From the NCBI RefSeq assembly GCF_001293685.1, contig NZ_BCAG01000003.1:186001-250000 (forward strand): 64,000 nucleotides of DNA, read 5' to 3'. The position numbers were made by a program, and so were the translations under genes. How positions within the stretch are numbered: the stretch's first letter is position 1; each line of letters opens with the position of its first letter. The notes under the pieces were generated by a model, which worked only from the letters and a program-made list of their open reading frames with translations, made no database searches and was not told the DNA's origin. Origin of the DNA: Desulfatitalea tepidiphila. Its GTDB lineage: Bacteria > Desulfobacterota > Desulfobacteria > Desulfobacterales > Desulfosarcinaceae. Below, one piece after another: positions 34,123 through 37,014 of this stretch.

Positions 34123-34290
34123 ACGGCGATGATGGTAGGTTGATAAAGGCCCGCACTTTCCGTGTCAGACAAAATGTGCGCCGATCGGGCCATTTTCTGA
34201 TCTATTCCAAGGATGCCCATATAATTGGACATAAATTGATGGATTCGTAAAAGGTCGATCGCGGACGGCGCCGTCAAGATGGGAGGTTCA

Positions 34291-35460
34291 ATGAATTCGG
34301 CATTGAAGGACAAATACGCCATCGTGGGGATCGGGTACACGCCCCAGGGCCGCGTGCCCGGAAGAACGTCACTGAGTTTTCATCTGGAGGCGTCGGCCAA
34401 TGCCATCGCCGATGCCGGCCTTCAGAAGAGCGATGTGGATGGTTTCATCTGCTATCGCCACTTTCCGGCCGCTTCTGATGAAACCGATCTGACACCGAAT
34501 CGCATCGCCCAACACCTGGGGATTTCACCCGCTTACATGTACCAGGACGCCAACTGATCGCGAAGCCACATCCAGCACGCAGTTGGCGCGCTCGAATCGG
34601 GTTGGTGCAATTACGTTCTTATATCCTACGGACACAGTGCCCTCTCCAGCGACAGCATGGCGACCATGCTTACAGCCTTTTCCGGAGATGACGCCGTGTT
34701 CGGTCATTTCGGCGCCACCGGCGGCTATGCCTTGGCCGCCAGGCGGGCCATGCACGAATTCGGCACCGGTCCCGAGACCTGGAAGAAGATCGCCGTGGGC
34801 CAGCGCAGGTGGGCCAATCTCAATCCCCAGGCCCGGATGTATGCCAAGCCCATGACCGAAGCGGACTACGACAATGCCAATTGGATGGTCGAGCCGTTTC
34901 GGCTTCCCGACAATTGCCTGATCACCGACGGCGGGCGGGCCATCATCATCACATCCGTGGAGCGGGCTCGTGACCTGAAGCAGCCGCCGGCCGTCATCAT
35001 GGGCATGGGGCAGCAGCATCCTTCCACGGAAGTGGCCCAGTCCACCTGGATGGCCGGGCCCACCGGGGCCAAAAAGGCGGGGGCCATGGCCTTGTCCATG
35101 GCGGGGATCTCCCTCGATGACGTGGATGCCTGCCAGATCTACGACTGCTTCAGCTATACCGTTGAAATCACCTTGCAGGATTACGGTTTTTTCGGACCCG
35201 GTGAAGGCCGGGATTGGCTCGAGGGCGGCACCATCGAACCAGGAGGCCGCATGCCGGTCAATACCTCCGGCGGCCTCTTGTCGGAGGCCTATTTCATGGG
35301 GTTGACCCCGATTTCCGAAGGCGCCATGCAGATCATGGGGCGTTGTGTGCAACGGCAGCTCGGCCCTGCCACCCACACCAAAAGACCGGAGATTATTCTG
35401 TGCAGTGACAATGGCGGCGTTCTGCAGAGCCACTCGAGCATCCTGCTGAGGAGGTTGTAG
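34291..35460 (+). CDS. Thiolase-superfamily (SCP-x/lipid-transfer type) protein interrupted by an in-frame UGA
   Basis: The frame runs from ATG 34291 to TAG 35460 (389 codons) and is interrupted once, by TGA at 34555-34557 (residue 89). Similarity continues on both sides: KYAIVGIGYTPQGRVPG at the N-terminus, then after the stop HAVGALESGWCNYVLISYGH, and a C-terminal thiolase lobe (DACQIYDCFSYTVEI; NTSGGLLSEAYFMG). The UGA sits where the thiolase nucleophile loop lies, about two residues after the usual nucleophile position by my hand alignment. It may be a selenocysteine, a disabling mutation or a sequencing error. A weak 5-bp hairpin (34572-34586) lies downstream, but its loop ACGCA lacks the usual early G. 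It overlaps nothing and is directly followed by its usual DUF35 partner. Confidence 0.6.
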
Positions 35461-35968: not shown

Positions 35969-36490
35969 ATGAGACGTGACGATGGCGGATGGAATCCCTA
36001 CCTGGCGGGAGCCCTCAGCGGAGTGGTGGGGATCTTGTCGGTGTGGCTCGCCGGCAAGTATTTCGGCGCTTCCACCTCTTTTGTGCGTACGGCAGGGCTG
36101 ATCGAGCAGCTGTTCGGTCCTGAACGGGTGGCGCAGATGGATTACTTCATCAAAACCGCCCCTAAAATCGACTGGCAGTGGATGTTCGTGGTGGGCATCT
36201 TCCTGGGCGCCTTGATCTCCGCAGTCACCTCGGGTTCTTTCAGGTGGCAGGCCGTCCCCGACATGTGGGCCGACCGTTTCGGCGCCGGCAGCACGGTCAG
36301 CCGCGCCGTGGTGGCCTTCGCGGGCGGCGTGGTGGCCATGTTCGGGGCGCGCCTCGCCGATGGGTGACCCAGCGGCCACGGGTTGAGCGGTTCGCTCCAA
36401 CTGGCGGTCAGTGGGTTCATCGCGTTGGTTTGCTTTTTTGTCGGGGGCATGATCATGGCCCGCATCGTTTACGGGGGAGGTTCAAAATGA
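35969..36490 (+). CDS. Selenocysteine-containing YeeE/YedE-family membrane protein, first half of a split transporter
   Basis: 173 residues if the TGA at 36365-36367 is read as selenocysteine (residue 133). Four to five hydrophobic helices, with GLIEQLFGPE and WMFVVGIFLGALISAV in the first part and GGVVAMFGARLADG-UGA-PSGHGLSGSLQLAVSGF across the UGA. YeeE/YedE proteins carry the hallmark GARxAxGCTSGHGxSG; here its Cys is the UGA. Downstream the frame encodes the expected last helix (IALVCFFVGGMIMARIVYG) and ends TGA 36488-36490, overlapping the next gene's ATG. A SECIS-like hairpin starts 15 bases after the UGA. AAAGGAGG precedes ATG 35969. YeeE (TsuA) imports thiosulfate through Cys-lined steps; a selenocysteine here implies transport of a sulfur or selenium species (inference). 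Confidence 0.88.
36382..36401 (+). promoter_or_regulatory. Bacterial SECIS-like hairpin after UGA 36365-36367
   Basis: GTTGAGCG (36382-36389) pairs with CGCTCCAAC (36393-36401) through eight pairs with one bulged C, closing a GTT loop; opening the top pair gives the loop GGUUC, similar to the E. coli fdhF loop GGUCU as I recall it. The loop begins about 22 bases after the UGA, in the usual range for bacterial SECIS elements. Confidence 0.7.
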
Positions 36491-37014
36491 AATTGTTGAT
36501 CTACGGATTGGTGACCGGCCTGTTGTTCGGGTTTTTTCTGCAAAAAGGGCGGGTGCTGCGCTATGACAAGCAGCTCGGTGCCCTGCGCTTGAAGGACATG
36601 ACCATCATCAAGTTCATGCTTTCCAGCGTGTGTGTCGGCATGGTGGGGATCTACCTGTTGAACGACCTGGGATTGGCCAAACTGTCGATCAAGGCCACTG
36701 TATTGGGGCCGGTGATCATCGGCGGCCTGATTTTCGGTCTCGGCTGGGGTCTGTTGGGATATTGCCCGGGAACCTCTATGGGCGCCCTCGGTGAAGGACG
36801 CTGGGACGCTGTGTGGGGCATCGTCGGCATGATCGCCGGCGCGGCCCTGTTCGCCGAGGCCTACCCCGCGCTCAAGCAGACGGTCTATACCTGGGGAGAT
36901 CTGGGCAAAATCACCTTGCCCCAGGTGCTGGGGGTCAATCATTGGGTGATCATCCCGATCTTTTTGATCGGCGCCGTGTTTTTCTTCCGTTGGCTGGAGA
37001 AAAAGGGGTTGTGA
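36487..37014 (+). CDS. YeeE/YedE-family membrane protein, second half of a split transporter
   Basis: 175 residues with four to five hydrophobic helices. The second hallmark of the family, GLLGYCPGTSMGALGEG, is present with its Cys encoded normally (near residue 95). Full-length YeeE/YedE proteins contain two such repeats in one chain; here they are two coupled genes (ATGA overlap at 36487-36490), which should form a heterodimeric channel: one half with selenocysteine, the other with cysteine. It is followed after 4 bases by a K+-channel-type gene. Confidence 0.9.
   Translation: MKLLIYGLVTGLLFGFFLQKGRVLRYDKQLGALRLKDMTIIKFMLSSVCVGMVGIYLLNDLGLAKLSIKATVLGPVIIGGLIFGLGWGLLGYCPGTSMGALGEGRWDAVWGIVGMIAGAALFAEAYPALKQTVYTWGDLGKITLPQVLGVNHWVIIPIFLIGAVFFFRWLEKKGL

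Follow-up and report, generated by a model that had tools for sequence, protein, structure and literature searches.

A split YeeE/YedE transporter pair in Desulfatitalea tepidiphila with a predicted selenocysteine in its first half and a possible role in sulfane sulfur import

Within a window of 64,000 nucleotides from Desulfatitalea tepidiphila (contig NZ_BCAG01000003.1, positions 186,001 to 250,000 of the forward strand), a gene resembling one half of a sulfur transporter is interrupted by an in-frame UGA, which raises the questions of whether this codon is read as selenocysteine (Sec) and what a Sec-containing half would do beside a partner that carries cysteine (Cys). From its ATG at 35969, preceded by AAAGGAGG, the frame runs for 132 codons to the TGA at 36365–36367 and meets no further stop until the TGA at 36488–36490. 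The UGA occupies the Cys position of a G-C-P-S-G-H-G motif (...ARLADG-U-PSGHGLSG...), and the readthrough product scores 82.3 bits against the Pfam family Sulf_transp (PF04143; cut-off 27) over profile positions 175–310. The first-pass annotation had described a frame that crosses the UGA at the motif Cys and carries on with SGHGLSG, with a stop that overlaps the next gene in an ATGA; the sequence agrees on both points, and on the former so does an alignment of 96 related loci (Table 1).

The gene that follows matches Sulf_transp (54.9 bits) and DUF6691 (33 bits; cut-offs 27), and by the profile ranges that they cover the first gene corresponds to the C-terminal and the second to the N-terminal half of YeeE/YedE proteins. 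In all 96 loci the partner half follows the first half directly, with the extrapolated matches offset by no more than 60 nt. The two halves align to complementary halves of the TsuA/YeeE chain (PDB 6leo, Spirochaeta thermophila; 8k1r); with position numbers of 6leo taken from printed alignments, Sec133 falls on Cys293, Cys93 of the partner on Cys91, and Leu24 of the partner on Cys22. The Cys93 column holds Cys in 94 of the 94 loci in which the match covers it (the other two of the 96 are not covered), in agreement with the earlier remark that the partner keeps its own Cys in a GYCPGT motif, while all 96 have Leu, Ile or Val in the Cys22 column, so that the third cysteine of TsuA is absent. With both halves above the Pfam cut-off, complementary along 6leo and paired without exception, the proposal of a split YeeE/YedE transporter has gained in strength, and on sequence grounds we consider it highly probable that the two genes form a pair of the PmpA/PmpB (YedE1/YedE2) type. 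Homology and the strict pairing of the genes suggest that the two halves most likely assemble as one TsuA-like pore. The Sec would then take up a position that belongs, in TsuA, to one of three cysteines across the membrane (PMC11073785), in line with the first-pass statement that the TsuA cysteines line the conduction path.

Table 1. Coordinates of features of the split pair within the window
Feature	Position	Strand	Basis
Putative Sec-containing PmpA-type half of split YeeE/YedE transporter, 173 aa, Sec133	35969..36490	+	Readthrough translation, Pfam, 96 loci
UGA codon, predicted selenocysteine, residue 133	36365..36367	+	Column of TGA or Cys codons across 96 distinct loci; aligned to Cys293 of StYeeE (6leo)
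SECIS-like hairpin, bulged stem, loop GUU, begins 14 nt past the UGA	36382..36401	+	Fold, covariation, synonymous shuffles
ATGA overlap of partner start and Sec-half stop	36487..36490	+	Sequence
Putative PmpB-type partner half, 175 aa, Sulf_transp profile 16-150 and DUF6691	36487..37014	+	Pfam; downstream in 96/96 loci
Leu24 codon of partner, at the Cys22 (third cysteine) column of StYeeE	36556..36558	+	Alignment to 6leo; 96 loci
Cys93 codon of partner (GYCPGT), equivalent to Cys91 of StYeeE	36763..36765	+	Alignment to 6leo; 94/94 covered loci

The identity of the UGA was addressed by comparison of related loci. Of 389 genomes of the class searched with the first half, 164 gave matches, and only the best matches were taken. 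Named genome contigs were scanned as well; they supplied 94 relatives, and the top 80 of these were retained. The codon could be aligned in 112 loci; removal of two extra copies of the window locus and 14 double finds left 96 distinct loci, a set skewed to near relatives of the window locus. As the first-pass annotation had suggested, these were compared for TGA or Cys at the UGA column of split YeeE/YedE genes: the column holds TGA in 61 loci and a Cys codon in 35 (TGC 25, TGT 10). Homologues of the first half do not end at the UGA; the homologous frame runs on past it, and none of the 61 TGA loci has an additional in-frame stop in the remainder of its match. The ratio pN/pS is 0.25 after the UGA (codons 15–36) as against 0.47 in the 40 codons that precede it, the latter calculated without one locus (L038:1421-1927, minus strand). 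This locus, a first-half copy with the UGA plus a TAG and a TAA upstream of it, is probably a broken copy; its genome carries a second first-half copy with a single TGA, and no extra stop lies inside the match in any of the other 95 loci. A single isolate, Malonomonas rubra DSM 5091, has two first-half copies with TGA (L063 and L067), each followed by a partner half.

A quick tree was built from the 96 first halves with the Sec/Cys residue masked; in it the window first half lies next to that of Desulfatitalea sp. UBA4791. The tree requires at least ten changes between Sec and Cys, five of them forced by starred branches, which suggests that Sec and Cys can replace each other in this position; 41 of the 93 inner branches are poorly supported. 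The host, a bacterium related to sulfate reducers, appears to have Sec where many of its relatives have Cys.

A second line of evidence comes from the RNA just downstream of the UGA, where the earlier description of a bulged hairpin with a GUU loop at the right distance is matched by a fold that covaries in the TGA set only. Folded as a single sequence, the predicted hairpin is unremarkable (z = -1.01 for 46 nt, +0.56 for 37 nt and -2.49 for 61 nt). Counting the T of the TGA as 1, the wobble positions 21, 24, 27 and 30 have entropies of 0.24, 0, 0.35 and 0.12 in the 61 TGA loci as against 1.17, 0.92, 1.79 and 1.57 in the 35 Cys loci, a contrast that may be inflated because the TGA set is on average nearer the window than the Cys set; at wobble positions 6, 12, 39, 42 and 45 the two sets differ little in variability. 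Among 59 distinct rows of the TGA set, 92.4% of cells are paired as against 88.2% in shuffles, pair-keeping changes on both sides affect 25 cells as against 7.3, and the covariation score is 0.196 as against 0.114, and none of 500 shuffles reached the observed value for any of the three measures, while the counts of double-change pairs (2) and additional pair types (7) do not exceed the shuffles. The Cys set has 65.7% of its cells paired and no covariation measure above shuffles. The apical fold lies within the best 5% of a locus's own synonymous-codon shuffles in 59 of 61 TGA loci as against 6 of 35 Cys loci, a test that is independent of the kinship of the sets because it is done within each sequence. 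It is thus the comparative evidence, rather than the single fold, that places the predicted hairpin beyond chance. Two forms of the structure were seen: the SLQ type has a bulged stem and a GUU loop, and the LAQ type an unbulged stem and a six-base loop. In loci of the LAQ type (L042, L093, L119 and others), whose protein has LAQ in place of SLQ after the motif, the register of the hairpin shifts along with the protein sequence.

The genome also encodes what Sec insertion demands, namely tRNA-Sec (73.4 bits), SelB (374.3), SelA (620) and SelD (380.4), all over their cut-offs. Among 31 genomes with a TGA inside the first-half match, a count that includes six (G331, G049, G351, G251, G213 and G338) in which the TGA is placed only to within the match, SelB was found at 1e-70 or better in 25 and SelA in the other six; the six without such a SelB hit are assemblies of 140 to 650 contigs. 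SelB is likewise present in 25 of the 29 genomes whose best match is stop-free, so its presence does not discriminate between the two groups. A side observation from the same genome is an in-frame TGA in SelD itself (G000:C1:801085-802344; L022, L137), with a TusA-family match about 140 bases downstream.

Taken together, the codon comparison, the constraint on the hairpin and the Sec machinery in the genome support a genuine selenoprotein, as the first-pass annotation had proposed, and we regard it as nearly certain from these comparisons that codon 133 of the first half is read as Sec. Automatic annotation probably truncates such genes at the UGA in sulfate- and metal-reducing bacteria. AlphaFold2 modelled the first half with low confidence (pLDDT 64.7, pTM 0.41), and a PDB fold search with the model returned no match at E ≤ 0.001, so nothing was inferred from it.

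YeeE/YedE proteins are not new to the selenoprotein catalogue. The family (PF04143) already stands in the tables of two reviews (PMC9312934 and PMC13188914), with WP_012471001.1 as an example and, in the latter, a GUxSG motif with one Sec. The reviewed family shares its Pfam family and the G-U-P-S-G motif with the window protein, and the catalogued WP_012471001.1 is likely of the same type; in the available text of the reviews, however, the entry consists of table rows and a sentence among transporters, without split architecture, partner, SECIS comparison or mechanism. YeeE is not mentioned in the main texts of PMC2398784 and PMC5029168, the references cited for the family, and the original description may therefore sit in their supplements; nor is it mentioned in the main text of PMC12013277. 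YeeE in related bacteria is discussed in PMC13293266 and PMC13047784, in whose available text the word selenocysteine does not occur. A literature search on YeeE/YedE selenoproteins, the names of the split forms and Sec-containing sulfur transporters turned up no paper describing the split Sec form among the titles and partial texts returned. What was already known is thus the selenoprotein family and the split Cys forms, and what is clearly shown here is the two-gene Sec form together with its RNA signal. A bare table entry thereby gains an architecture, a partner, an RNA signal and an evolutionary pattern.

The closest described systems are the split pairs PmpA/PmpB of Serratia and YedE1/YedE2 of Cupriavidus pinatubonensis, which like the window pair consist of two genes, a C-terminal half with the Cys293 position and an N-terminal half with the Cys91 position, with one conserved Cys each. 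They differ in having Cys in the first half and in the length of the halves (about 130–144 aa, as against 173 and 175 aa in the window); a Cupriavidus pair was also aligned. Longer split pairs occur on plasmids of Cupriavidus campinensis and of a Fusobacteria bacterium, the only pairs found in a plasmid search. These are adjacent genes of similar length to those of the window, with GCTSGH and G[YF]CPGT motifs, but they are distant (identical to the window protein at 35% and 32% of positions) and contain Cys only. TsuA/YeeE, in contrast, is a single chain (339 residues in 6leo) with Cys22, a YeeD partner and cysteine throughout.

What the pair transports can be approached from these relatives. 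In C. pinatubonensis, zero-valent sulfur uptake was reported to be faster only when both YedE1 and YedE2 are present; Cys104 of CpYedE1 and Cys101 of CpYedE2 are each essential, since replacement by Ser abolishes uptake, and the full-length YedE3 proteins tested gave no speed-up (PMC10812762). For PmpA and PmpB, one conserved Cys each is reported, at the Cys293 and Cys91 positions, and a heterodimer has been proposed (PMC11582611). We posit that the window genes encode a split Sec/Cys YeeE/YedE pair that imports sulfane sulfur or a short polysulfide, and assign this reading as a whole a rough probability of 0.6. Sulfane (zero-valent) sulfur as the cargo, taken as a claim of its own and resting on analogy, is put slightly short of even odds; it is favoured over thiosulfate because the architecture and the two cysteine positions are those of YedE1/YedE2 and the third cysteine is lacking. 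CoA-disulfide-reductase-like genes, the commonest though rare immediate neighbours, also speak for this cargo, whereas the greater length of the halves, the unconserved neighbourhood and the lack of a TusA gene near the pair count against the reading. The first-pass annotation had left the cargo as a sulfur or selenium species, and of these the sulfur part stands as the one that analogy supports.

More specifically, the Sec would form the first position of the path, equivalent to Cys293 of TsuA, and Cys93 of the partner the second, equivalent to Cys91. The selenolate would capture sulfur at the periplasmic side and hand it to the partner Cys, from which a cytoplasmic thiol would take it, and both the third cysteine and the docking of YeeD known from TsuA would be dispensable. 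Such a Sec/Cys heterodimeric pore, moving sulfane sulfur through a covalent selenenyl-sulfide relay with the selenolate at the outer gate, is offered as a speculative mechanism to which we give about one chance in three. Its order of steps agrees with the account of TsuA in which Cys293 is given as first in the path (PMC11073785). Against a simple relay, the spacing of the cysteines is said to make direct Cys-to-Cys sulfur transfer questionable (PMC11582611), and the Cys of YedE1 is predicted on the cytoplasmic side (PMC10812762).

The strongest competing explanation is that the Sec/Cys pair is a TsuA-like importer of thiosulfate in which Sec merely tunes the first binding site. TsuA is the best NCBIfam relative of both halves, and Cys91 and Cys293, reported to be indispensable in TsuA (PMC11582611), are retained here as Cys and Sec; the scores of the halves (48.5 and 47.6 bits), however, fall far below the TsuA equivalog cut-off of 400, and the third cysteine, which in TsuA belongs to the YeeD interface, is missing from every locus compared. 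Moreover, a TusA-domain search of the genome found no TusA/YeeD gene near the pair, the three matches lying elsewhere (the nearest about 97 kb away). We consider thiosulfate import unlikely, at odds of some three to one against.

Import of a selenium species, either selenide or selenite-derived selenium, for selenoprotein synthesis appears less likely still. The host does use Sec, and YedE relatives are tied to selenium metabolism (PMC9312934). The genome, however, possesses a separate selenium-type YedE of the TIGR04112 family (G000:C1:185401-186724; L003, L136; 489.5 bits, cut-off 200), a member of the same superfamily as the window pair but a single chain, with a TusA-family gene adjoining it. 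These two genes likely represent a selenium-handling cluster distinct from the window pair, and for this reason selenium is a less likely cargo than sulfur. Both window halves lie below the selenium YedE cut-offs (second half 30.6 bits; first half unlisted), and the Cys versions in 35 of the 96 loci also argue against selenium as the cargo.

Equally improbable in our view is that the pair acts as a redox or persulfide sensor, or as a sulfur exporter, with a reactive pore Sec that would report on or vent reactive sulfur. Part of the case for it comes from the gene neighbourhood, where mechanically called ORFs of 90 aa or more flanking the pair were scanned (60 downstream and 64 upstream, out of 96 loci) and the first 25 families of each scan considered: peroxiredoxin genes, the next commonest of the families listed, lie directly upstream in 4 of 64, and a family with a cNMP-binding domain (one member scanned) lies about 2.6 kb downstream in 7 of the 96 loci, all of them with TGA. 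In Acinetobacter, a yedE1-yedE2-pdo2 operon has been linked to sulfur detoxification, but the same report found that YedE1E2 boosted the import of zero-valent sulfur and not its export (PMC10812762). No neighbour family occurs in a majority of loci and, the two halves apart, none among the families listed recurs widely, so the neighbourhood cannot be called conserved. The commonest of those families, CoA-disulfide-reductase-like proteins (Pyr_redox_2), was found in 5 of 60 genes downstream and 3 of 64 upstream, and an NCBIfam scan of eight neighbours labelled six as CoA-disulfide-reductase-like, all below the NCBIfam cut-offs; these are too few for the neighbourhood to decide function.

By far the least probable explanation, and one we rule out, is that translation truly ends at the UGA, or that a nonsense mutation arose there recently, which would leave the homology beyond it as a relic: gene finders would end the frame there, the single-sequence fold is unexceptional and L038 is probably broken, but TGA recurs at one column without any later in-frame stop, pN/pS is low beyond it, the partner is conserved and the SECIS constraint is confined to the TGA set.

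Bacterial selenoproteins are mostly regarded as redox enzymes. If the relay proposed for the sulfane sulfur importer were true, selenium would here be the chemical handle of a transporter, not of an enzyme, and one swapped with Cys many times in evolution. Sec at a conserved pore position, for which nature also provides many Cys versions, allows the role of selenium in sulfur transport to be compared cleanly.

Just upstream of the pair, and adjoining a DUF35/OB-fold gene, lies a thiolase-like gene (34279–35460, plus strand) with an in-frame TGA of its own (34555–34557, codon 93). A search of the 389 genomes of the class, in which at most four candidates were scored per genome, returned matches at E 1e-60 or better in 17. 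Fifteen of these, the window's own included, have 68–100% identity and one in-frame TGA each; the other two, at 38–39% identity, have none. In an alignment of 18 rows, 16 (15 of them distinct) have TGA at this column; the two distant (38%) relatives have a different codon, and their Cys lies 2 and 6 residues beyond the column. Thiolase is not mentioned in the main texts of the reviews PMC9312934 and PMC13188914, and a literature search for a thiolase-like selenoprotein returned no title pointing to such a protein. On the strength of the alignment the gene probably encodes an undescribed selenoprotein, which may be more novel than the split YeeE/YedE selenoprotein. In 13 of the 16 rows with TGA, CACGCAGTTGGCG is found 3' of the codon, and this element is possibly a SECIS stem-loop.
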